The notes: generated from the sequence alone by a model not told the origin. 39,644 nt of DNA from Verrucomicrobiales bacterium (GCA_014239335.1 JAAZZC010000268.1:1-39644); one strand, 5' to 3'; shown: positions 782-38,158, numbered from the stretch's first letter. Translations and numbers: made by a program.

Positions 782-3700
782 ATGATAATGTTTAGCATGA
801 TGAAACATCGCGCTCTTATTCTGCTTTTTACACTAGTATCGGTTTTTCTGATCAGATCCGAGGCCGTCGAAATTGCTAATTCAATTAATGATTTTAGTAT
901 CGATGGGACTCAGGGGGAGAATGGTTGGATTTCAGGATACCGTAACTACACACAAGACGGTGGAGGTGACGACTACAATGCAACTGAAGACTTCATCGCC
1001 TTTGACAAGGAAGCTGCTTGGAGAGGTGACTTCTGGAGGCTCGCACCATCCGGTGCACCTTGGACTTTAGTTAAATCTGATTCAGGTCATCCTAATGGCA
1101 CAAACAGCGCTCCTAATGAAGAGCACTGGGCCATAAGGAGATGGGAGTCTGACCGTGAGGGGCCCCTTGCATTTACCTGGAGCCTCAGAGAGCAGAATCA
1201 AGGCGGCTCAGGTGTCGGAGGCTCACTGCACCATAATGGAGTGCTGGTTGATTCCGGAGCAACAGACACTGGGGAAGGGTTTTCAAGGACCTACTTCATT
1301 AATATAGAGGTGGGTGACGTTGTCGATTTGGCGTTGACCCCAGTCGGTCCGGGCGGTGATCGTTCCGATGGATCTGACGGTTCATACTTTTCGATGATTG
1401 TCGATGATGAGGTCAATGATACTGAGACACAGCCTGACGGGTCTTCTTTCATTTCAGCGACTGCTGATGACGACGATGAGGATGGTTTATCAGATGCTTG
1501 GGAGGAAATCTATGCTCCCGGTGATTTGTCTGCTCTGAATGGGGATGGGGTAGCTGATTATGATGAGGACGGGCTCAGTGACCTTGAAGAATTTAATAAC
1601 AAGACAAATCCTGATGAATCTGACACGGATGAGGATGGGTTGGATGATTTCGCTGAAATTGACGAGCATTCCAGTGACCCAACGAATCCTGACACTGATG
1701 GGGATGGAATAACAGATGGTGATGAAGTTCGAGGAGACCCGCCGACTAGCCCTACTGATTCTGATACCGATGGAGACGGTTTTTCTGATGGTGATGAAAT
1801 ATCATTTAACAGTGATCCGACCCGTTCGGATGATACGCCTCTGAGTTTGGTTTTGGGTGATTCATCTTCTGAATGGTCAGGAGGAATGCAGGGACAAGAC
1901 AACTGGACTAATGGTTGGCGCAATGTCACAGCTGACGGGGCAGGAGATAATTATGATGCTAGGACAGATTTCATTCCTTACACTGGTGGTTCAAATGATG
2001 GAGGATGGGACGGGGTCCAGCAACAATGGAACGGTAATGCGTGGGACCTTAACACTGCAGGCGCACCCCCTTGGACATATCTGGCAAAGGAAGCGACTCA
2101 TCCTAACGGCACTAATAATGGGGATGAGCATCATACGATTCGTCGATGGGCCGCGAAGTCTGGAGAGGAGATCGATACGGTCACGTCAGTCGCTCTCATT
2201 TGGCATTTGCGAAAAGGTAATGCTAACGGTAACGGAGTGACCGGATCTGTTCATCACAATGGAATGCTCATAGATTCTCTTGCTATCGCGGGGAGTGATA
2301 CAGAAGGAGTGACACGTACAGTTTATGCTAATATTAGTCCGGGCGATTTCATTGATCTTGCGCATAGTCCGGTCGGAACGACTGGTACAAATGATGGTAG
2401 CGATTCTTCTATGAACTGGATCAGGATTGATGAGAGAATACCGACTAACCCGGTCCAACCTGATGGCAGTGCTTTTATTCCAGCGACAGGAGAGGACACT
2501 GACGCTGATGAGTTACCTGATGCATGGGAATTAGCAATTTTTCCTGGGGATTTGACGAAACTTAGCGGGCTTGGAGATGCTGATTTTGATGAGGATGGTC
2601 TTTCTGATCTGAGTGAATTTGGACTCGGGACCGAACCTGATAATGATGATACGGATGATGACGGGCTCAGTGATGGCGATGAAATCAGTGAGTATGAGAC
2701 GGACCCAAAAAGTAATGATACTGACAATGACGGGATCACTGATGGAAATGAGCTCAGCGATGATAATGGATTCGTTACCTCACCAAACAATGCTGACACT
2801 GACAGTGATGGGATCAAAGACGGTGAGGAAATAGAGACCCATTTAACCGATCCATTGAAGAAAGATACGGACGGAGATGGTGCGCTTGATGGGTACGAGG
2901 TTGCTAGGTTCTTTGATCCTCTCGATCCTGACATTAACCCTTCCACGCTTCTCGCTGATTCGTACGAAGAATATTCGGGCACTCAGGGACAAGATGACTG
3001 GAATTATGGGTATCGAAATCTCACTGCTGATGGTGGAGAAGTAGAAGAATATGACCCGGTCGAGGACTTCGTTGCTTTTGATGAGGCTGAGCACTGGAGG
3101 CCTAACTGGAGGCTTGCCCCGTCCGCTGCTCCGTGGACATTGTTCAGTGGCCCGGAAGGGAGTCATCCGAACGGAACGAACAGTGCCCCTAACGAGGAGC
3201 ACTGGACCATTCGCCGCTGGACCGCGTCTGAACTTACGGCCGAGACTCCAGTGGGTCTCACATGGCATACCCGAAAGACGAACCTCAATGGTGGAGGTGT
3301 GACTGGAAGCCTTTACGTGAATGGCTCGCTCGTTGATACGCTTTCATTTGCGGGTAATGATGGGACAGGGGAAATTCGGACTTGGTATGAGAATTTAAAT
3401 CCTGGAGACATTGTTGATATTGCACTTACCCCGGTAGGTCCTGATGGGAATGCTTCGGATGGCTCGGACGGTTCAGCGAACTGGTTACGTGTTGATACCC
3501 GCATTCCTCCTGGAGCGAGTCAGCCTGACGGGACACCGTTCCTTGCAGCGTTGGCTCAAGGTTTGCAAGTCACTGATATTTTATATGATCCTGAATTGCC
3601 GTCTCTTCTCGTTACCTGGCCGTCAGGGGCGGGTCGTAATTATGCCGTTGATATATCAACGGGCCTTTTGGGTGGCGTAGACGAAGGCAGTTGGGAAGAG

Positions 3701-3808
3701 TACGATGACAGTATTCCTGGAGAAGGGGAGGAGACAACGTATGAGGTCATTATTGAAGAGCCTTTACCTCCCAGGTTTTTTATTCGTGTCCGTGATGTTA
3801 CTGAATAA
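782..3808 (+). CDS. Secreted protein with three ~185-aa repeated modules separated by thrombospondin type-3/EF-hand-like calcium repeats (DTDGDGxxDGDE)
   Basis: N-terminal hydrophobic signal. GTQGxxxW..GYRN.T.DGG...WRLAPS.APWT....HPNGTNSAPNEEHW.IRRW recurs three times. Many DxDxDGxxD loops lie between modules, with a C-terminal LLVTWPSGAGRNYAVDIS...RFFIRV tail. Confidence 0.85.
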   Translation: MIMFSMMKHRALILLFTLVSVFLIRSEAVEIANSINDFSIDGTQGENGWISGYRNYTQDGGGDDYNATEDFIAFDKEAAWRGDFWRLAPSGAPWTLVKSDSGHPNGTNSAPNEEHWAIRRWESDREGPLAFTWSLREQNQGGSGVGGSLHHNGVLVDSGATDTGEGFSRTYFINIEVGDVVDLALTPVGPGGDRSDGSDGSYFSMIVDDEVNDTETQPDGSSFISATADDDDEDGLSDAWEEIYAPGDLSALNGDGVADYDEDGLSDLEEFNNKTNPDESDTDEDGLDDFAEIDEHSSDPTNPDTDGDGITDGDEVRGDPPTSPTDSDTDGDGFSDGDEISFNSDPTRSDDTPLSLVLGDSSSEWSGGMQGQDNWTNGWRNVTADGAGDNYDARTDFIPYTGGSNDGGWDGVQQQWNGNAWDLNTAGAPPWTYLAKEATHPNGTNNGDEHHTIRRWAAKSGEEIDTVTSVALIWHLRKGNANGNGVTGSVHHNGMLIDSLAIAGSDTEGVTRTVYANISPGDFIDLAHSPVGTTGTNDGSDSSMNWIRIDERIPTNPVQPDGSAFIPATGEDTDADELPDAWELAIFPGDLTKLSGLGDADFDEDGLSDLSEFGLGTEPDNDDTDDDGLSDGDEISEYETDPKSNDTDNDGITDGNELSDDNGFVTSPNNADTDSDGIKDGEEIETHLTDPLKKDTDGDGALDGYEVARFFDPLDPDINPSTLLADSYEEYSGTQGQDDWNYGYRNLTADGGEVEEYDPVEDFVAFDEAEHWRPNWRLAPSAAPWTLFSGPEGSHPNGTNSAPNEEHWTIRRWTASELTAETPVGLTWHTRKTNLNGGGVTGSLYVNGSLVDTLSFAGNDGTGEIRTWYENLNPGDIVDIALTPVGPDGNASDGSDGSANWLRVDTRIPPGASQPDGTPFLAALAQGLQVTDILYDPELPSLLVTWPSGAGRNYAVDISTGLLGGVDEGSWEEYDDSIPGEGEETTYEVIIEEPLPPRFFIRVRDVTE

Positions 3809-3826: not shown

Positions 3827-6800
3827 TTGATTGATTCCTGCTTTTGCAGGTGCTCTTTGTGGGATAAATTATATCCAGTGCTATTTCTTTTCAGATCTTT
3901 GGTAACAGTTTTACTGTTCTTATCTCTTTTTCTTATTTCATGTAAAAAGAAAGAAAGAAAAAGTTCAGGGTCTGAGGATTTGAAAATTAAAGAAGCCAAG
4001 GCTCCCGTAGTGCCTGGTACGGAGACGGAGGTTCCTACCTATGATCCGGGTGATGGGGGGTGGAAAATTGAGGAATGGAATAATGAAATTATTTCATCTC
4101 TTAAAAAGTTAAGTAAAAAGCTCATCAATAATGATGATTGGGAGATTTTCACGAATTCATTGTGTTCTTCGAATTTTGAAGGCGTGTCCTTCACTTATCC
4201 TAAAGTTCCAAAATCCTTTGAGCGAGGAAAGGTGCTTCTTTTTAGTCCTGAGAATGAGCCGAGAACCATGAATGTGTTTTCTGAATCAATTAGTGGGCTT
4301 CTCGATGAGCATTCACTGATAGGTAGAGTGGAGCGTTCAAGTTTTAAGGTCGTTGGAATTGAAGGTTCAGCAAAGAAGAAAGTGAGCTGTGAGGCGATTG
4401 TACATTTTGCTGGTAGGCATGATGAAGTTTTTCGTGAGTTAAAAGGAACTCTAAATTTAAAGTGGGATCTTGAATCGGGTGAGATGAAACTTCTCAGAGT
4501 GGACGGTTCTTTTCGTGCCGTTTATTCATCGATCGGACAGTTTGTTGATGTCACTCAGTCCTCATTAGGTGAAGTGCCTGAATTTGCTGAACAATTTTAT
4601 CGAGGACAGGATCATTGGACCGGGCGATTGGAAATGTTGACGGGGATTGATGTTGGAGGTTGGCAAGGAGTAGCCGTTGCGGACATTAATAACGATGGGA
4701 AGGATGATATGTATGTGGCCCAACCTGGTGGGTTGCCGAACCGACTTTATATCAGGAATAGTGACGGGACTTTCGAGGACCGATCAGTGGCATCAGGAAC
4801 AGATTTCCTAGACTCATGCCATGGTAATCTTTTCGTTGATCTGGATAATGATGGGGACCAGGATTTAATTTCAGGTGTCCTTGATGGTGTCGTTATCATG
4901 GATAATGACGGGGAAGGCAATTTTACTAGGCGCGCTTCTATGGTTCTTCCGGCGGCGGTTCCTTACTCAATATCAGCAGCTGATTATGACGTTGATGGAG
5001 ATCTCGATTTCTATGTTTGTTGCTATAATAAGAGACCCGGAGTCAATAGGCATCACCTCTTTGCAAGGCCAGTTCCTTACCACGATGCAAATAACGGGGG
5101 CAGGAATGCACTCTTTCGCAACGATGGTAATTGGGCATTTCGTAATGTGACCAAGAAAGAAGGTCTTGATGAAAATAACCGTAGATTTAGTTATGCATCG
5201 TCTTGGGAGGACTATGATAATGACGGAGACCTTGACCTTTATGTGGCGAATGATTTTGGGCGGAATAATCTTTATACGAATGAGGGATCAAGGATTCGTT
5301 TTAAGGACGTTGCCGAGGAGACGGGAGTCGTTGATGTGGGTCCAGGTATGTCCGTTTCATGGGGAGACTATGACAATGACGGCAAGCCTGATCTTTATGT
5401 AGGCAATATGTTTTCCTCTGCGGGGCACAGGATAAGTTCACAGGATCGTTTTCATAAGGGAGCTGATAAAATCACAAAGGACTATTACAGGAGACACGCG
5501 CGTGGGAATTCGTTATACAAAAATATAGGCAACGGTTCTTTCCGTGATGTTAGTCTCAGTGCTGGGGTCAGCGTCGGGCGCTGGGCATGGTCATCAAGGC
5601 TAGGGGATATGGACGGTGACGGTTATCAGGACATATATGTGGCAAATGGCTTTATTACGCAGCAGGACTCTGGAGATTTGTGAAGCTTTTACTGGCGACA
5701 GGTCGTGTCGAAATCACCCCTATCTCAGACAAGTTCTCCTGACAGTTCGTACTTGAATTCTTTCTCCCAACTCGCTGGACGCATTCGGTCAGGAAATTCT
5801 TTCAGTGGTAACGAACGTAACTCTGCATTTTACAACCTCAGTAATGGTAAGTTCACTGAAATTTCTTATTCGCTTGGTCTAGATTTTCTTGATGATGGCC
5901 GTGGCCTTGCTATTACCGATTTAGATGATGACGGTGATCCTGACTACTGTGTTACGAATCGGACGGCTCCTCGCCTTCGATTGTTAAGGAATGATCTTAG
6001 GACGGGTAACCGGTGGGTAACATTGCGGCTTTATGGTGATCCTGAAAAGAATTGTCCGAGGGATCCTGTGGGTGCCAGGGTTGAAATGAAGGTCGGATCC
6101 CGGACCCTCTTTCGTACTCTTTATGCTGGGGACAGTTTCTTGAGCCAATCAAGCAAGTGGCTTCACTTTGGCCTAGGTAATTCAGGTGAGATTAATTCAG
6201 TGAAGGTGCGGTGGCCTTCTGGTCAAACTGAGTCATTTGTCGGTATATCTCCGGGTGGAAAATTCATTATCAATCAAGGGGTAACGGATGCACTGCCTGT
6301 TACATTGACAGGCATTAAGAGTGCTTTAGCTCCTGCGACACAAACTATGCCTGACCCGGTTGAGACTGCTAGGATCCGGCTATCGCAGCCTTTAAAATTA
6401 CCTGATAAATTAAAATATAAGGACACGAATGGAAAAATTATTTTTATTGATGACTTAACGAGTGAGGGGCCGGTTCTAATCAATTTATGGGCTTCATGGT
6501 GTGCCCCTTGTATCTTGGAGCTTGGGGAATTTGGTGCTGCCAATAAACGTTTTAGTGAGGCAGGAATGAAAGTTTTGGCGCTTTCAGTGGATGGGCTATC
6601 GGATAGTCAAGATTTTCAACCCGAGCGGATCAAATCGATTGTGAAAGATTCAGGTTATGTTGGAATGGCTGGGTTCGCTGATGAGCGTATTGTTAGCGTA
6701 TTGAACGCATTAATTATGGAAACGATTTATCAACACCGTGACCTCCCGGTCCCAACAAGTTTTCTAATTGATAAGGGTTCCTGGATGACTGTGATTTACA

Positions 6801-7654
6801 AGGGACTTGTAGATGTGGACCAAGTGCTCCAAGACCAATCACAGATGGGCCTTGGGCCACAAGTGGCTCTGCGTGAATCGTCACCTTTCACTGGGATTTG
6901 GGTTGGCAATGGATTCAAGAAGGATCCGATTTCAGTGGCGTCAGTATATCGTAGATCTGGTTATGTTGATGAAGCCAGAGATTATCTTAAGGATTTTATT
7001 TCTTCTCACAAGATCATACCTGGAAGTGATCCAGGTTCTCGAAAGTCCTCCCAATTATCGGAAATTCATTTCCTTCTAGGTGAAATTCTCGCAGAAGAGA
7101 AAAAATTTAAAGATTCGCTCATTCAATTCAAAGCGGCTTTGCATCTTAATCCTAGTTCAAAGAGTATGCTTATGAGAAAGATCTATGCCCTTGCTCAGGC
7201 CAAAAATAATAAAGATGCGATTGAAGAGGCTCTCGGAATAGTTGATAAATTTCCTACTGATCCGAATGCTTTGACCCTGTTAGGTGATGTGTATTATGCT
7301 CTTGGTCAGTCCTCGCCGGCATCCGAGGCATTTATTAGAGCACTTAAGTTGAATTCAAAAACCATCCCTGCTCTTCGTGGACTTGCTCTGATAAGAGCGA
7401 CTGCTGAAGAGGAAGAGTTGAGAAATGGGAAGGAAGCGGTCAGACTTGCTGAGTTCCTCATGAGTTCTCCTGGAGCGAGTCAGAACCCTGATTTTATAAG
7501 AATCTTAGCGGCTGCGCACTTTGAGTCTGGTGATTCTATTAAATCCAAAACCTTGGCTGAAAATGCTCTCCGAATGGCCTATGACCGGAGCTTATTACTT
7601 TTAATTAATGAGATCGAATCTTTATTAATTTTGATAAGAGAAAAGCAAAAATAA
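3827..7654 (+). CDS. CRTAC1-like FG-GAP/VCBS + ASPIC/UnbV lipoprotein fused to a thioredoxin domain and TPR repeats; in-frame UGA at 5681-5683 read as possible selenocysteine (alternatives: nonsense mutation or two ORFs)
   Basis: ORF 3827-5683 (LFLISC lipobox; repeated DxDxDGxxDLYVAN FG-GAP motifs) ends in TGA. The next ORF is in the same frame with no other stop: ...DIYVANGFITQQDSGDL-UGA-SFYWRQVVSKSPL...GARVEMKVGSRTLFRTLYAGDSFLSQSS...VKVRWPSGQTESF (ASPIC/UnbV), then LINLWASWCAPC (thioredoxin), then TPRs. The true start may be GTG 3878. Confidence 0.75.
5681..5716 (+). promoter_or_regulatory. Candidate bacterial SECIS-like hairpin immediately downstream of the in-frame UGA
   Basis: UGA 5681-5683. 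Stem CGAC (5696-5699)/GUCG (5707-5710), loop AGGUCGU (5700-5706). Possible lower stem UGG (5693-5695)/UCA (5714-5716) across an AAA bulge. The loop begins 16 nt after UGA. The loop core AGGUC matches what I recall of the E. coli fdhF SECIS apical loop (AGGUCU). Not folded computationally. Confidence 0.45.
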
Positions 7655-21134: not shown

Positions 21135-22928
21135 GTGTTAGGGTTTGGCTGGATGAAGACAAATGCACCTACGGCGACCGTAGCGCAACGCTATCATTAT
21201 CTTGATGCCCTGCGTGCCTTCGCGATGCTGCTGGGCATCGTACTGCACGGGGCATTGTCGTTTTTCCCCATGCCCATTTGGCCAGCGCAGGATTTGCATC
21301 AACCGGCGTTTGATGTGCCGGCCTTGCTGGCTGCCTTCCTTGCGCAGGTCGGGCTGGAGGTGCCGGAGACATACAGTCCCTACGAGTTCATGCTGCATGC
21401 CATCCATGGGTTTCGTCTGCCGCTGTTTTTTTTGGTGAGCGGATTTTTCACGGCAATGCTTTGGAGGAAGCGCGGGCTCAGGCAGCTGGCCAAACACCGG
21501 ACCAAGAGGATTCTCCTGCCCCTTGCCATCTTTGTGCCCCTTACCTGGATATTCATGATAGTTGTGGGAATGGAGGCTTTCGTTGTTCCCTCGGGTCACT
21601 TTGGAGAAAACAAGAAGGGGGCGGCTACAACACCCCGGGATGAACCTGCTAGGCAAGCCCAACAGGAGAGAAAGCCACGGGCAAAGAATAATCCCGAGGC
21701 CGCGATTGATATCGGCAGGGCCGCGGGCATGGGAGACCTCCGGGCGCTTGAGTGGCACATCCAGGCCGGCACGGACCTGAACCAGCGCGGGGCTGATCAA
21801 TCCACGCCAGTCATGATCGCTACCGTCTTTGGCCGAGTGGAGGCCGCCAAGGTATTGATTGAGGCCGGCGCAGACCTGAACCTGAAGGAAAAGGACGGCT
21901 CGACAGCCCTGTTGAAGGCATCGTTCTTTGCCCATCCTGAAATTGTCGAGGCCCTGTTGGAAGCGGACGCAGATCCCAATATTAAAAATAATGATGGATC
22001 AACCGCCCTGGACATGGTACGGGGCCCTTGGAAGGAGATCAGGTGGGTTTACGACTATGTTGGCGAGCTCCTGGCCCCCATGGGGTTGATACTGGATTAC
22101 GAGCGCATCCGGGAAACCCGCCCGCAAATTGCGGAAACGCTCAGGGAAAATGGCGCGGAGGAGGGTCACGGAGTCGACCTTGATTTGCTGATCCTAATGG
22201 TATTTTTTGCTCCTGTATTCCATCATCTCTGGTTCCTTTATTACCTGATCTGGCTAGTGGTGGGGTTCATTCTGATCACGTGGTCGATAGGAAAATTGAA
22301 ATTAAAGGCATTGCCTGACAGGCTGGTTACTTCCCCAGTGTGCTGGCTTTGGCTACTGCCGGCTACGTTTCTGACACAGCTACTGATGAAGGAGAATTTT
22401 GGTCCTGCTACCGCGACCGGGGCTCTTCCTTGGCCGCCTATCCTTCTTTATTACGCGGTCTTCTTTTTCTTTGGGGCCCTTTGTTTTGGACGTGATTGGT
22501 TCAACACCAAGGCGGGCAAAGTCTGGCCGCTTAGCTTTGTGCTCGCAGTGCCCCCGCTCCTTACAGGCCTGTGTCTAGTCAAGAGCCAACAAAACGACGA
22601 ACTTTTGGCTGCTTGTTCCGTTGCCTACGCGTGGCTGATGGTCTTAGGATGTATTGGTTTCTTCCGCTATTTTTTCTCGGGTGAAAATCCGCGAATCCGT
22701 TACCTCTCCGATGCCTCTTACTGGCTTTATATCATGCACCTCTCGGTGATCATGTGCCTTCAGTCGATAGTCAGTACCTGGAACATGCCCAGCTTGCCGA
22801 AATTTCTGATTGTGTGTGTCGCTACAACGCTTCCTCTGCTTTTGATTTATGAGGTTGGTGTGCGCTACACCTTTATCGGCACCATGCTCAACGGTAGGCG
22901 GACACGGACAAAGTCTGCCGGATCCTAG
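21135..22928 (+). CDS. Acyltransferase family 3 (OpgC/OafA-like) membrane protein with an ankyrin-repeat insertion
   Basis: RYHYLDALRAFAMLLGIVLHGALSFFP...GFRLPLFFLVSGFFTAMLWRKRGLRQLAKHRTKRILLPL (acyltransferase_3), then GDLRALEWHIQAGTDLNQRGADQSTPVMIATVFGRVEAAKVLIEAGADLNLKEKDGSTALLKASFFAHPEIVEALLEADADPNIKNNDGSTALDM (ankyrin), then further TM helices with HHLWFLYYLIWLVV and YLSDASYWLYIMHL. Confidence 0.88.
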   Translation: MLGFGWMKTNAPTATVAQRYHYLDALRAFAMLLGIVLHGALSFFPMPIWPAQDLHQPAFDVPALLAAFLAQVGLEVPETYSPYEFMLHAIHGFRLPLFFLVSGFFTAMLWRKRGLRQLAKHRTKRILLPLAIFVPLTWIFMIVVGMEAFVVPSGHFGENKKGAATTPRDEPARQAQQERKPRAKNNPEAAIDIGRAAGMGDLRALEWHIQAGTDLNQRGADQSTPVMIATVFGRVEAAKVLIEAGADLNLKEKDGSTALLKASFFAHPEIVEALLEADADPNIKNNDGSTALDMVRGPWKEIRWVYDYVGELLAPMGLILDYERIRETRPQIAETLRENGAEEGHGVDLDLLILMVFFAPVFHHLWFLYYLIWLVVGFILITWSIGKLKLKALPDRLVTSPVCWLWLLPATFLTQLLMKENFGPATATGALPWPPILLYYAVFFFFGALCFGRDWFNTKAGKVWPLSFVLAVPPLLTGLCLVKSQQNDELLAACSVAYAWLMVLGCIGFFRYFFSGENPRIRYLSDASYWLYIMHLSVIMCLQSIVSTWNMPSLPKFLIVCVATTLPLLLIYEVGVRYTFIGTMLNGRRTRTKSAGS

Positions 22929-32082: not shown

Positions 32083-35000
32083 TTAGTTTGAAGTGTAAGC
32101 ACTGATGCCGAGATCACTTCGGAGGAGGAGGATCTTGTCAAACTTAGGGTTAGGATCAATGTGCTGGGGGGAAAGGTCCCTAATGGCCTCGGTCTGCTCT
32201 GCAACGATCGATTGCTGAATGTTACCTGTGTTCATATCTACAAAATACATTGGAGCTCCTTTGTCTCCTCCGTTGAAGAATTTCATAAGTTTATTTTGGG
32301 AGGTTCTAACAAAGAACCCATGTGCATCGATGGGGGATTTCTCAGCAGTCGGGCTCACTATAAATCTTTTTTGAGCCAGATTAGCTATGATCAGTTTGTG
32401 GCTTGGCAAACATAAGATATCATTTTCTATGATGATACGGTTCCTGTCGAAGGGGATGCCGGACCCAATCTCAAACCTATAGGAGGGATCTTCCGGCTTT
32501 AGGATAACAAATACTTCCTGATTTTTTTCGTTCCTTGTCAGTGCAAGCATGTATTTGCCATGGCAGCTGATCATTTCATGGTTAATCGCAAATGGAGTGG
32601 CTTTTTCCCCGTCCAACACATATCTGTAGAGGTTGCGCTTACCGTGTTTACGGTCCCTTGTTTCCAAAACAACGCCACCATCGAAGAATTGAGCCTTATC
32701 AATGAAGAGTTTCCTGACCATGATTCCTTTAGCTACTGGTTGTCCCCATTGGCTAGGATCATTGCTTGCGTAGAGTTCGTACTCACTGATCATGCCGTTA
32801 TTGTTAATAATCACTGCCGGGAGGTAACGGAGGGACTTAAAAATGGATTCTTTTCCAAGGTCAATTTGTATTTCGTGAGGATGAGGAGGAATCTTTCCTA
32901 TCCATTGGGTATGCCACCAGGTGCTGGGGTTCCCGTCAAAGACATTCTTTAGGTCAGTGTTCATCCTGGACTTTGGTTCGTAACTATCAGCGTAATGGGC
33001 CCTCCATTTAGATCGATCAATATTTCTATCATCTTCACCTCCGAGATGGATTTCAGCAGCTGAGGACCATCCCATTCCATTTACCTCTGAAAGCATTACT
33101 AACCTAAAGTACCTTGCCTTGACCTGATCAAATTTAATTTCGTAATAGCCTTTACCGATCAATTTTCCGTCAGAATATTTTTGCCCGTCGTTAGTGATGT
33201 TGACATCATAGTCATTAATTAAATGGCCACTCTTCGGATCTATTTCCAGGTGCCATGGGGCCCGTCCCATTGATGTCTGAAAAACGTGAATTTTTTTACC
33301 GTCCCATTGCGGTATAGTGTGATTACCGAAAGCTACCCGCCTTTCCCATAACCTTTTTCCGGTATTTGGATCAAAAGCGAATAGGACAGTTCTCTTGTCA
33401 TGCATGAGTCCTACATCTCCACACTTCATCATGGAATTAGCTTGGGCGGGAACCTTTGTTTCCCAGATGATCTTCCCACTCATTCCATCAAATGCGACAG
33501 CGTGTCTGTTCGCGCCTGCTCCTGTAAGAAGTAGTAGTTTATTATCAATCACTTGGAACGCCGGCTGAATTGCATTTATGAATCTTCTCCATTTCAAAGC
33601 GCCTTTTGATGATATTTCTACACATTCCAGTAATCCTTCACTCAGAATAAAAGCATGATTTGTCAATGGTGAATCGTGAGGGGATCTGATGATTCTGGCA
33701 TCATTGCGCATGAGCGTCCATTGCCGCTTTATATTTGAAGATAGGCTTTTATTGGCAGGGGTTGCATTTGGATTTAGCGGTTCTGAGACGGCGAGTCCTC
33801 CACCTTTGGAGGGGCTGTCGCTAATCACGTAAATAGAATTTTTATCTATTAGGTAAGAGAGTGGTTGCCCCACGTTTTGATTCCATTGCTTTGAATCCTT
33901 GACTGCTCCGGTGGTAGCATCAAATTCCGTAATTTCTCTTGTGCTAGCAAGATATATGGAGGAACCGATCATTTGAGACCGGCCAATCGATCTCTCGGGA
34001 ACTTTGGTATGCCAGCTTGTCTTTCCTGATTTTAGATCAATTGCAGCCAAAGAGAATTGGCCCCTGACGATGAGGTAATTTTCGTGTCTTCCTAGATATT
34101 CAATTCCTAAGGCCAAGGTATTTTCCCAAACAACTTTTCCAGTTTCAGATTGTAGAGCGAAGACCTTCCCTGAATCCTTTGTCATGCATATGGCTAGATC
34201 ATCAATGATGACCGGATGACTTCCTAGGGCCCCGGCCCCGGCGCCTGGGCTATTATTGTAATAGTGAATCCAGTCCGGTCTCCCATCTCTAGGGTCACAA
34301 CGGGCAATTAGGCCAGCGTTGCTGTTAATATAAATTGATCCTGAGTCCAGACTTACTCTGTTGCCGAAAGTCCTCGTCACATCACGAGCCTTTTCCAAAT
34401 TCCCAATAATGTCGCTGGACTTTCCTGCCTGAGCAATGGTGGTCATCCATACGAGGGATTGGGTGGCTTCTTCGATGCATGCGAGTTGAACTGTTTGTCC
34501 TCCGTGGGAACTCCAGATAAGAACATAGATGAGCCCATCAGATATGACTGGATCACTGATTGGTATAATGTTTGGGTTTTGTCCCGGGCCGAATCCAAAG
34601 TCGTCATAGAGCCATTTGGCTTTTCCTGATGCTAAATCGAAAGCTGCGATGCCCTGAGGTATGGCCTTGAATCCCCAACGTGTATAGATTGTCTGATTCT
34701 TAACTTCGGGAACGAAATAACCCGGCAAGATGTTACGTTTGGACCGGTCATCATTCATTGGTAACCTTGGCTGGGACCAGATTGATTTTGATGTGTCATT
34801 TATATTGTAAAGAGCCAAATGATTGCGGCTGGAGATTAGGAGGTTATTTTTAATGACTTGTACATCTAGTACCATTCCTCCGGTATGGCCTCCGCCGAAC
34901 CAGGGAGTCACTGCAGGGATTTGAATTACTTTTGGATTGAGTTCGCTCAGTGGTAGAGGTTCCGGATCAGCTTTCTTTTCTGGTATTGTGTTCAGTAGCT

Positions 35001-36195
35001 GGTTGCCCAGATCACTTGCCTTGAGAGTTTTATCCATCCAGACCATTTCTTGATCAGGATCAGAGCCTTTAATTTCCTTTTCTAAGGAATCACGATCTCC
35101 AACCATGGACAGAGCGATCCACTTTCCAGTTCTTGCAAATTTGATAATTTTAGGATCATCCGCGTGATCTATAAGATCTTCGAAACTTCGTAGAGCAGCA
35201 AGGGCATGTCCCGCAATGAGACTTCGATTAGCAGTTCTTAAAAGTGTCTTGTGAGCACTCGTAGACCATGGGTAACGTCTGAAAAGATCTAGAGCCCTTT
35301 GATTGGTGAAATCAGGTTCTAAGTTTTCACGATTGAATGAACGTTCTTGTATCTTTCGAAGGCTCGAGAGTTCCTTCTCGGGGAAGCTTTTCAGGTGTAA
35401 GTCAAGTGCTCTGGATGCATCAAGGATTCCTGTCATGTCTCGCCAGGGGACAATGGACTCTGGAAGTAGAGTGATTCCAATTAGCCGGTCAACTTGCCGA
35501 GCGACTCTTCCCGCAGGCTGTTCGATGACTTGTTGCCAACGACCGTCTGGATCATCGGGAGAAAGGTCTGGCATTGGGCTGCCTTCTAAGGGTTTTAGAA
35601 TCGGTTGAGGTAATTTTCTAAAATCACTTTCTAAGATTTCCTTGAGTCTGACCCATCTTTCTCTGATCCAAGGGTCAGGATGATTCATGTCTTTGTTTTT
35701 CTTTAATTCCTCATATTGGTCTCTAGTGCTTGAGAGGCCTAGGGAATTATGTGCGCTTGCTCTGGTTGACTTCCAGAAAAGATCATATGGGTTCCTTTCT
35801 GCTATATCATCATGTCTTTCCGCAGCGACGAATAGGTTTCTATCTGTAAGGTACTGAGTCAGCCCTTGTGCGATAATTTCACGGTACAATAGAGAGTTGG
35901 CTGAGATGTGTCCTAGTCTTTCGAGAGCTGCTATCCTTGTCGTTACGTATCTCATCCATCTGGACTGGGTGTTATTACGGTCTCCGCGCTCGTAGATTTT
36001 TTCTAAGCAACGGATTGTCAGGTCTACATTCCCTGGATCAGATTCAATGAGTTGCTTTAAATGACGATTTCCAGTTTCGCTATCATTGTTATTGTATGCT
36101 TCATCAGCTTTTTTCCATAGATCATCATTGGCAACTGATATGGTATTCGCCAATATCATTGCCAGAATGCAGAAAAATAAGCTTATAACCTTCAC
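32083..36195 (-). CDS. Secreted TPR + PQQ-like beta-propeller protein with an F5/8-type C (discoidin) domain
   Basis: Signal VKVISLFFCILAMILANTISVA; repeated GKxxWxxx propeller motifs (KWLYDDFGFG, GKVVWENTLALG, GKIIWETKVPAQ, GKRLWERRVAFG); discoidin-like KARYFRLVMLSEVNGMGWSSAAEIHLGG...FDGNPSTWWHTQW...IQIDLGKESIFKSLRYLP. Start revised to GTG 36195, 1 nt after the upstream stop (ORF track start 36264). Confidence 0.82.
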   Translation of the reverse strand: MKVISLFFCILAMILANTISVANDDLWKKADEAYNNNDSETGNRHLKQLIESDPGNVDLTIRCLEKIYERGDRNNTQSRWMRYVTTRIAALERLGHISANSLLYREIIAQGLTQYLTDRNLFVAAERHDDIAERNPYDLFWKSTRASAHNSLGLSSTRDQYEELKKNKDMNHPDPWIRERWVRLKEILESDFRKLPQPILKPLEGSPMPDLSPDDPDGRWQQVIEQPAGRVARQVDRLIGITLLPESIVPWRDMTGILDASRALDLHLKSFPEKELSSLRKIQERSFNRENLEPDFTNQRALDLFRRYPWSTSAHKTLLRTANRSLIAGHALAALRSFEDLIDHADDPKIIKFARTGKWIALSMVGDRDSLEKEIKGSDPDQEMVWMDKTLKASDLGNQLLNTIPEKKADPEPLPLSELNPKVIQIPAVTPWFGGGHTGGMVLDVQVIKNNLLISSRNHLALYNINDTSKSIWSQPRLPMNDDRSKRNILPGYFVPEVKNQTIYTRWGFKAIPQGIAAFDLASGKAKWLYDDFGFGPGQNPNIIPISDPVISDGLIYVLIWSSHGGQTVQLACIEEATQSLVWMTTIAQAGKSSDIIGNLEKARDVTRTFGNRVSLDSGSIYINSNAGLIARCDPRDGRPDWIHYYNNSPGAGAGALGSHPVIIDDLAICMTKDSGKVFALQSETGKVVWENTLALGIEYLGRHENYLIVRGQFSLAAIDLKSGKTSWHTKVPERSIGRSQMIGSSIYLASTREITEFDATTGAVKDSKQWNQNVGQPLSYLIDKNSIYVISDSPSKGGGLAVSEPLNPNATPANKSLSSNIKRQWTLMRNDARIIRSPHDSPLTNHAFILSEGLLECVEISSKGALKWRRFINAIQPAFQVIDNKLLLLTGAGANRHAVAFDGMSGKIIWETKVPAQANSMMKCGDVGLMHDKRTVLFAFDPNTGKRLWERRVAFGNHTIPQWDGKKIHVFQTSMGRAPWHLEIDPKSGHLINDYDVNITNDGQKYSDGKLIGKGYYEIKFDQVKARYFRLVMLSEVNGMGWSSAAEIHLGGEDDRNIDRSKWRAHYADSYEPKSRMNTDLKNVFDGNPSTWWHTQWIGKIPPHPHEIQIDLGKESIFKSLRYLPAVIINNNGMISEYELYASNDPSQWGQPVAKGIMVRKLFIDKAQFFDGGVVLETRDRKHGKRNLYRYVLDGEKATPFAINHEMISCHGKYMLALTRNEKNQEVFVILKPEDPSYRFEIGSGIPFDRNRIIIENDILCLPSHKLIIANLAQKRFIVSPTAEKSPIDAHGFFVRTSQNKLMKFFNGGDKGAPMYFVDMNTGNIQQSIVAEQTEAIRDLSPQHIDPNPKFDKILLLRSDLGISAYTSN

Positions 36196-36196
36196 C

Positions 36197-38158
36197 TCAG
36201 AATAATTCCACGGGCTTGTTGTTTGCATCGGTGATGCGGGCCCTGACCCACCACTCGTGTTCAATGTTGGCGCTCTTTACTAGGATCCTGTTCTTTCCTT
36301 TCTTGAGCTTGATTTTTATATTTCCTTGAGAGGCTACGCAACTTTGCCTGTGCAAGTAAGGAGCAACCTGTTCGGAAATCTTTTCTCCATTCAGCCAGAC
36401 CTTAAAGGCGTCATCTCCGTCCAAGCTAAGGAAAAGGTCTTGGTCCTTTTCTGAATTAAAGTCGGAAACAGCATAAGCAATAGAGAATGTTCCTGGGGGA
36501 GGAAGGAGGGGCCCCATCATAAGCATCCCGTTGGTTTTATTAACACTGGCTTCTGACCACCCAATTTCACGTTCTATGGGCTTTTCCCCATCTCTTCTTT
36601 GGTTTCCTTGCAAGGCCCAAACATACGTTGAAGGATAGGTCTTTTCGAAATCAATGCCATTTTCAGGTTCGAGTTCATTTGCAAACGCTTTATGTTCTTT
36701 ATCATTGAGAAACGTGCCAACGACCATCCAGTTTGAAACATATCCTTGCCTTCTGGCAACGTTTGCAATCCCATTGTCGGGAGCGATGCTGCCCAATGCT
36801 TGCGCTACGGCTTCTCTTCGTACCGTATCTGTGCCGCTTAGGGCTTCGCCGAGCATTGCTAGTGCGGGTTCGAAGTCATCAGCGTTGCCGGCATGTCCGA
36901 GTAATTCAAATGCGGCTTTGCGTATCACGTTGTCAGTACTGACAAGTACATCTTCAAGATAAGATACCAATGTTCCTGTCGGTGCATCTTCGAGCGGCGC
37001 TTCCATCAGAGCATTGATGGCGGCAATTGATACGCCGCTTTCATCATCCTTGATAGTTTCCTTTAGAAGGGTATAAAGATTGGCCTCGCGACAATGACTG
37101 AGGCAGAGGATTGATAGAATTTTTATTTCAGGCGTTTTATTTTTCAGGTGAGTAATAAAGAATTCTTTATTAGAATCAGGATTCATTTCTTTTGATCCGA
37201 GGGCAATCATCACTGCTTCGAGGGTTTCGGGAGCACTAGTGGTTGTTAGTGCAGATAGTAGTTCTTTGCCAAGGTCTGGATCCTGAAAGAGAATTGTAAT
37301 GATTCGGGCAGCAGCAAAGAGTGCACTGTCTCGTCCTGTTTTGATCAGGTCCTTTAAGGAACTTGAAAGGATTTCATTATTGTTCTTAGAAAGAGCTGAG
37401 ATGATATATGCGAAATTAGCGTCATCAGTGCTGGTTTTTTCAAGTATATTTAGAAGGACTGGTACGGTCTTAGGGCTTTTGCTCCTATCAAGAGACTCAA
37501 TCAATGCTCTCTTGTTTGTTGAAGACTTCGTTAATTCTTTTAGCCTTTCTAAGGCATCCTGATTCCCAATGAGGGCCAAGGATTCGACAGCCAATGGAAT
37601 TAATTCTTCGGTCATAGACTCGGTCATTTTTTGAGCTAAGGGCCATGCCTTTTCTCCCATGATTCTGGAATAGGAGGCCAGTGCTCTGAATTGAACGGGT
37701 TTCATTTTATCGGTGGTCAGTTTCAGTACAATATCCACTCCCTTATTTCCCTTGATTAATCCAGCCGATTCAGCGGCTCCTTCCCGAAGTACTTGATCAG
37801 AGGATGAGGCGAATGTGGATAATATCTGAGGGATGTCCTGACCATTTTGAATTTTGCAGTAAGCCACTAAGGCCCTGGACCGGATCCATGACCGTTCCTT
37901 CTCGTCTTTGGTTATCTTAAGGATGCTTTCTAGGGCCTCTGGGACTTTATTTTCAGAAAGATAATGAAGGGCTTCGGCTTTTAGTATCCAGTCTTCTTCG
38001 TTGAGTTGTTGAAGGTATCCGATTGTTCCTGATGGCCTCACGGGCGCTCCGGGGGCGCTGAGTTGAAAGAAGATCAGCGAAAAGATTATCACTGCCTGTG
38101 GCAAGACAGTCGGAATTTTTTGGAAGATTTGAAATGTGGAGGGATGGTTCACATTCAC
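36197..38158 (-). CDS. Secreted HEAT-repeat protein with C-terminal CBM/PA14-like beta domain
   Basis: HEAT-like repeats (LREGAAESAGLIKGNKGVDIVLKL, VIRKAAFELLGHAGNADDFEPALAMLGEAL, VRREAVAQALGSIA); C-terminal LFLSLDGDDAFKVWLNGEKI...IKIKLKKGKNRILVKSANIEHEWWVRARI. Confidence 0.82.
   Translation of the reverse strand: MNVNHPSTFQIFQKIPTVLPQAVIIFSLIFFQLSAPGAPVRPSGTIGYLQQLNEEDWILKAEALHYLSENKVPEALESILKITKDEKERSWIRSRALVAYCKIQNGQDIPQILSTFASSSDQVLREGAAESAGLIKGNKGVDIVLKLTTDKMKPVQFRALASYSRIMGEKAWPLAQKMTESMTEELIPLAVESLALIGNQDALERLKELTKSSTNKRALIESLDRSKSPKTVPVLLNILEKTSTDDANFAYIISALSKNNNEILSSSLKDLIKTGRDSALFAAARIITILFQDPDLGKELLSALTTTSAPETLEAVMIALGSKEMNPDSNKEFFITHLKNKTPEIKILSILCLSHCREANLYTLLKETIKDDESGVSIAAINALMEAPLEDAPTGTLVSYLEDVLVSTDNVIRKAAFELLGHAGNADDFEPALAMLGEALSGTDTVRREAVAQALGSIAPDNGIANVARRQGYVSNWMVVGTFLNDKEHKAFANELEPENGIDFEKTYPSTYVWALQGNQRRDGEKPIEREIGWSEASVNKTNGMLMMGPLLPPPGTFSIAYAVSDFNSEKDQDLFLSLDGDDAFKVWLNGEKISEQVAPYLHRQSCVASQGNIKIKLKKGKNRILVKSANIEHEWWVRARITDANNKPVELF

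Follow-up and report, generated by a model that had tools for sequence, protein, structure and literature searches.

A probable new bacterial selenoprotein family combining a CRTAC1-type beta-propeller with a fused thioredoxin domain

Does the TGA codon at positions 5681-5683 of a Verrucomicrobiales genome fragment end a gene, or is it translated as an amino acid? In the stretch analysed here (39,644 nucleotides, GCA_014239335.1 JAAZZC010000268.1:1-39644, called the window below), two plus-strand open reading frames, 3827-5683 and 5705-7654, share one frame and are interrupted solely by this codon. A sequence-only reading had described this pair and had proposed selenocysteine (Sec) at the TGA. 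The coordinates and the frame are borne out, and no further in-frame stop is found: read through the TGA, 3827-7654 comprises 1275 codons followed by TAA. From the comparisons described below, we consider it very probable that 3827-7654 is a single selenoprotein gene of a new family, with UGA read as Sec.

The homologs align with the 1275-residue product over its whole length, with the TGA retained. All features of the gene lie on the plus strand. A lipoprotein signal peptide is predicted at 3884-3943, where the sequence LFLISC contains a lipobox (L-I-S-C, Cys39); on this basis, export and a lipid anchor are predicted for the mature protein. The FG-GAP/VCBS blades of a beta-propeller (residues ~239-619, 4541-5683) precede the Sec codon, as assigned by Pfam, AlphaFold and the Foldseek and HMMER matches to CRTAC1 (9etn). 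The remaining part of the propeller, with the invariant W623, E663 and R692, and the UnbV_ASPIC domain follow at 5684-6310, with UnbV_ASPIC itself at residues 748-809 (6068-6253). The FG-GAP repeats and UnbV_ASPIC exceed the Pfam cut-offs (139.1, 66.9 and 60.5 bits), and the earlier placement of the join between the propeller and ASPIC blocks agrees with these assignments (FG-GAP_3 and FG-GAP before residue 619, UnbV_ASPIC after it). The thioredoxin motif WCAPC, also anticipated on the same polypeptide, is present in the read-through product as Cys892 and Cys895, within a TlpA/ResA-like domain (residues 862-996, 6410-6814; Pfam AhpC-TSA/Redoxin, Foldseek ResA/TlpA). The C-terminal part consists of TPR repeats (Pfam, residues ~1064-1252, 7016-7582). 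The starts given in the ORF track are doubtful, because GTG 5705 lies inside the hairpin described below and TTG 3827 lies upstream of the LISC signal; the latter is the furthest upstream start, and the real one is probably elsewhere. A gene for a large protein with bacterial TSP3 repeats (782-3808, same strand) ends 18 bp upstream of the selenoprotein frame and is possibly co-transcribed with it.

The TGA is found at the Sec site in 85/85 homologs (less than 85% identical, sites located by the motif D-L-U-x(2,3)-W), and among all BLAST matches spanning the site the only non-TGA sequences are distant ones lacking the inserted motif. The alignment across the join, suggested earlier as a check, shows the UGA in every member of the UGA clade. 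In 37 related genomes, many full-length homologs are present, paralogs from the window's own genome included, each with exactly one in-frame TGA. The site profile used for these genomes treats TGA as Cys, so that a TGA is not required for a match; it gave 105 matches, 102 with one TGA and three belonging to a Cys clade. The 102 TGA matches fall in 19 related Verrucomicrobiales genomes, with 12 UGA copies in G018, 10 in G008, 9 in both G012 and G020, and 8 in the window's own genome. Family matches were obtained in 59 of 294 Planctomycetota genomes, which add 30 further TGA matches, and across 84,980 species genomes the scan yielded 79 loci in Verrucomicrobiota, Planctomycetota, Lentisphaeria and Acidobacteriota. 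What had been put forward as one gene is instead a large paralogous family spread across several phyla. A distant UGA subfamily with the motif VDLUSxLWRTVVR (L184/L259, L026, L027, L083, L261-L266) has a fused WCxxC thioredoxin in some members, while in others it is absent.

Downstream of the UGA, the RNA can form a SECIS-like hairpin, CGACA-GGUCG-UGUCG (5696-5710), in which CGACA (5696-5700) pairs with TGTCG (5706-5710) and the loop GGTCG (5701-5705) begins 17 nt after the UGA. The hairpin noticed in the sequence-only reading is real and is better described by this 5-bp stem than by the 4-bp stem given there, whose loop AGGUCGU begins at 16 nt. Among homologs with less than 75% nucleotide identity, 59/68 have the full stem. 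When codons were resampled for the same peptide, 2.4 ± 1.4 full stems out of 68 were expected (maximum 7 in 300 simulations); the peptide constraint is therefore rejected as the cause of the hairpin, against the earlier caveat that the codons of WRQVVS force the AGGUC string. In the 68 sequences (less than 75% identical), 92.6% of the stem cells are paired, compared with at most 62% for slid versions of the stem. The covariation score of the stem (0.196 vs 0.113) is above 500/500 shuffles, and the stem occurs in haplotypes with compensatory changes, among them CGACA/UGUCG, CGCCA/UGGCG, CGGCA/UGCCG and CGACG/CGUCG. In Planctomycetota, the full stem is present in 24/26 UGA homologs vs 0/17 sense-codon homologs (Fisher 4e-10, kinship ignored). 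Some members of the distant UGA subfamily have a shifted hairpin, CGCAC-GGUC-GUGCG.

The codons around the UGA are similarly biased. In the window, the recoding context is TTG-TGA-AGC (5678-5686). TTG precedes the UGA in 74/85 homologs and AGY follows it in 81/85, while the same-gene backgrounds are 17% and 36%, respectively. At codons +7 to +9, GTC, GTG and TCG encode the matching residue in 75/84, 77/78 and 68/70 cases, vs backgrounds of 37%, 35% and 23%. The UGAA context and the short stem, both raised earlier as caveats, are real in this gene but are traits of the family, in which UUG-UGA-AGY is nearly fixed. Judging from these alignments, the hairpin is maintained by selection at the RNA level.

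Bacterial SECIS (bSECIS) elements have a loop of 3-9 nt, a stem of 4-16 bp, a G in the first two loop positions and a loop placed 16-37 nt from the UGA (PMC13188914). Geometry rules i-iii agree with the hairpin described here (5-bp stem, 5-nt loop GGUCG with G-U, 17 nt). The folding check proposed earlier is thus positive with regard to geometry but not energy: the isolated hairpin has -5.8 kcal/mol against the bSECISearch threshold of ≤ -7.5, and the minimum free energy of the 50-nt stretch (-8.6 kcal/mol) belongs to a fold other than the hairpin. The mean energy of the homologs over a 23-nt stretch is -9.2. The RNAalifold consensus was another 4-bp hairpin, located on near-invariant bases and showing no covariation, and it was dropped for the covarying stem. 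A search of the window against Rfam at the gathering thresholds gave no match.

As for the decoding machinery, selB is present in the window's own genome (G000:C175, 328.5 bits vs a cut-off of 242.25). In this assembly, which is 59% complete, selA and tRNA-Sec were not found; none of the eight loci examined in the tRNA-Sec search reaches the cut-off, and they represent Ser, Trp, Cys, Leu, Arg and Tyr tRNAs. Both selA and tRNA-Sec are present in genomes of the same genus (G002, G005, G007 and G008). G007 and G008 have selA near tRNA-SeC(UCA), as well as selB, and their orthologs of the window's protein are 78% and 91% identical to it, respectively. The search for selA, selB and selC, suggested in the sequence-only reading, is thus positive for these three at the level of the genus, and for selB only in the incomplete own assembly. 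In G008, a sulfatase-like gene lies between tRNA-Sec and selA (L195, G008:C20), and genes for glucuronate isomerase and mannose-6-phosphate isomerase flank the locus. Among the 37 relatives, selA is over the cut-off in 15/19 family-positive genomes; the other four are three MAGs less than 60% complete and one genome with a selA fragment. The family is found in 0/14 relatives that lack selA altogether (each with a completeness of 80% or more), and in more distant family-positive genomes selA is over the cut-off in 12/16 (kinship was ignored in all these counts).

Redox-active Cys or Sec residues are typically placed at the start of a helix. In the AlphaFold model of residues 205-1010 (80 homologs, pLDDT 92.8, pTM 0.91), Sec619, which was modelled as Cys (model residue 415), is located at the start of helix 414-425, inserted between the propeller strands. 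The top match for the propeller is murine CRTAC1 (9etn; Foldseek 1e-27, hmmsearch 4e-33), and the thioredoxin domain matches ResA/TlpA in Foldseek with E of about 1e-8. Throughout the family, D617, L618, W623, E663, R692, M508 and M528 are among the invariant residues; around the Sec site, D617, L618, S620, W623 and R624 are nearly invariant.

The residues that replace Sec differ between clades. Cys is found at this position in 11 sister-clade proteins (DYC/DHC) and in 4 from Planctomycetota, the distant sister clade ('DYC' clade) carrying the motif KDYCTRFWCHDLY. The thioredoxin domain was not found in the examined members of the Cys clade, some of them covered by a short stretch. In planctomycete homologs closer to the family, the residue is E, Q, A, R or N; these sense-codon homologs are single open reading frames across the Sec site. 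The expectation that homologs would have either Cys or UGA is thus correct for the distant DYC clade but not for the near homologs.

The replacement of Sec is associated with a change in the thioredoxin domain. Both C892 and C895 are present in 76/76 non-redundant members having this domain. The CxxC motif is lost in all five sense-codon homologs with an alignable thioredoxin motif (WDAPS, EDRNS, RDAAS, WDDPS and ADPET) and kept in 110/111 other homologs (rows not de-duplicated), which corresponds to a hypergeometric chance of ~4e-8 (hand calculation, kinship ignored). The sole exception is a paralog from the window's own genome (L192, G000:C167), in which the UGA is kept and the thioredoxin fold has FWDSSIQKS. 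The loss of Sec together with CxxC is the strongest pointer to the mechanism and suggests a cooperation between Sec and the thioredoxin domain fused to it. The loci L228-L245 are planctomycete homologs with E, Q, A, R or N, several of them with degenerate thioredoxin motifs and some from genomes that also have UGA forms; they are likely non-redox derivatives.

What the computation shows is a single polypeptide with a conserved UGA, a hairpin under selection, the presence of the Sec machinery in the genus, and the joint conservation of Sec and CxxC; that Sec is inserted, that residue 619 is redox-active and that electrons pass between Sec and thioredoxin is what we infer. SelB and tRNA-Sec(UCA) would decode the UGA at 5681-5683 as selenocysteine, with the hairpin at 5696-5710 directing the insertion. 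The CRTAC1-type propeller would bear Sec619 at the start of the inserted helix, in the motif D-L-U-S-F-Y-W-R-Q-V-V, where it is probably a redox centre. The fused TlpA/ResA-like domain, with its WCAPC motif, would reduce or resolve the oxidised Sec; we hold this recycling step to be somewhat better than an even bet. As a first guess, the protein most likely acts in the periplasm or at the surface, as a peroxidase, a reductase or an enzyme of thiol-disulfide exchange. On balance, the proteins may well represent a new class of exported seleno-oxidoreductases with an active site in the propeller and a built-in thioredoxin reductant; in marine Verrucomicrobiota this class would have expanded to ~10 paralogs per genome, and it would extend over Planctomycetota, Lentisphaeria and Acidobacteriota.

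The UGA could instead serve regulation and not catalysis, with Sec inserted only when selenium is plentiful and the product being either truncated (residues 1-618) or complete. Such a switch would suit the many copies per genome and a position that tolerates other residues, as the variation among close sense-codon homologs indicates. It is nevertheless unlikely: truncation would break the propeller in the middle of the domain, according to the model, and the near-invariant site and the concerted loss of Sec and CxxC favour chemistry over a regulatory switch. Even less probable is a selenium-independent readthrough, in which a near-cognate tRNA would decode the UGA with the aid of the hairpin. 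The conservation on both sides of the UGA requires a full-length product, and a hairpin could stimulate readthrough of this kind, but the UGA is never exchanged for UAA or UAG among the family sites, the position of the hairpin and its G-U loop fit the bSECIS model, the family is associated with selA, and the hairpin is gone where the codon is sense.

We give very little credence to two coupled genes, with termination at the UGA and a restart at GTG 5705, the start that the ORF track places a few codons past the UGA. The SFYWRQ codons between the two are among the most conserved in the family, the GTG overlaps the conserved loop of the hairpin, and the fold is modelled as one propeller; for the family, this arrangement is refuted by the fused sense-codon homologs. 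A pseudogene, a sequencing or assembly error, or a genome-wide reassignment of UGA, to which a single metagenome assembly (59% complete) might lend some weight, is discarded, since the same UGA is present in well over 100 sequences from many independent assemblies, including the apparent single-cell genomes L039 and L040, which settles the base-call check in favour of the UGA, and TGA is an ordinary stop codon in 8/26 window genes, so the code is not reassigned.

The preferred reading, a selenoprotein gene, can be compared with known systems. SelB/bSECIS selenoproteins (FdhA, Sec-peroxiredoxin, TlpA-like) likewise have an in-frame UGA and a downstream hairpin with a loop G in the first two positions, 16-37 nt away, as well as selA, selB and tRNA-Sec in the lineage and Cys homologs in a sister clade. 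The new family differs from them in its host fold, which is a CRTAC1-type beta-propeller and not a thioredoxin fold, in the number of UGA paralogs, which reaches 12 in one genome, and in its close non-Sec homologs, where the position is taken by E, Q, A, R or N rather than Cys. With CRTAC1/ASPIC-UnbV proteins (PF13517, PF01839, PF07593; 9etn, the best structural match) it shares the FG-GAP propeller and UnbV_ASPIC, to which it adds the Sec helix after an FG-GAP repeat, the fused thioredoxin and the TPRs, in what is predicted to be a bacterial lipoprotein. Its thioredoxin domain has the fold and the WCxPC motif of the TlpA/ResA oxidoreductases (1jfu, 1st9) but is fused to a selenoprotein propeller and scores 44.2 bits against the cut-off of 230 bits for the NCBIfam TlpA equivalog. 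A TlpA-type domain is also part of the UGC-containing TlpA disulfide reductase selenoprotein (cd02966), in which Sec is listed in the UGC motif of the TlpA domain (PMC13188914); in the new family, the TlpA domain has a Cys-Cys motif, with Sec in a different domain, ~270 residues away.

An inventory of May 2026 comprises 119 prokaryotic selenoprotein families, and in its full table none of them has FG-GAP, ASPIC or the motif DLUSFxWRQVV (PMC13188914). No model of NCBIfam 20.0 reaches its cut-off with the 1275-residue protein. In the literature searched, without preprints or supplementary tables (such as those of PMC4807772, which list candidate selenoproteins of two planctomycetes), selenoprotein or selenocysteine was not found joined with UnbV, FG-GAP or CRTAC1. 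The family thus appears to be new, in the sense of previously uncatalogued; an earlier unnoticed report is possible, because most subscription papers also lay outside this search.

Other genes of the window include an unusual fusion of Acyltransferase_3 and ankyrin repeats in one open reading frame (21135-22928). Two minus-strand frames, 32083-36264 and 36197-38158, overlap in different frames; this pair comprises a PQQ/BamB-like propeller with an F5/8 type C domain and a HEAT-repeat protein.

Since ORF callers split each of these proteins of 1000-1300 residues in two, the family is mis-annotated in many marine bacteria and its selenium dependence goes unseen. The fold in which it has Sec is not on the list for known prokaryotic selenoproteins, and the partnership of Sec and CxxC within one chain is directly testable. 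In Verrucomicrobiota and Planctomycetota, a demand for selenium from many genes at once is implied. If this reading is true, the paralogs without Sec and the thioredoxin cysteines would be non-redox derivatives, and the family would be a major component of the marine microbial selenoproteome that annotation has missed until now.
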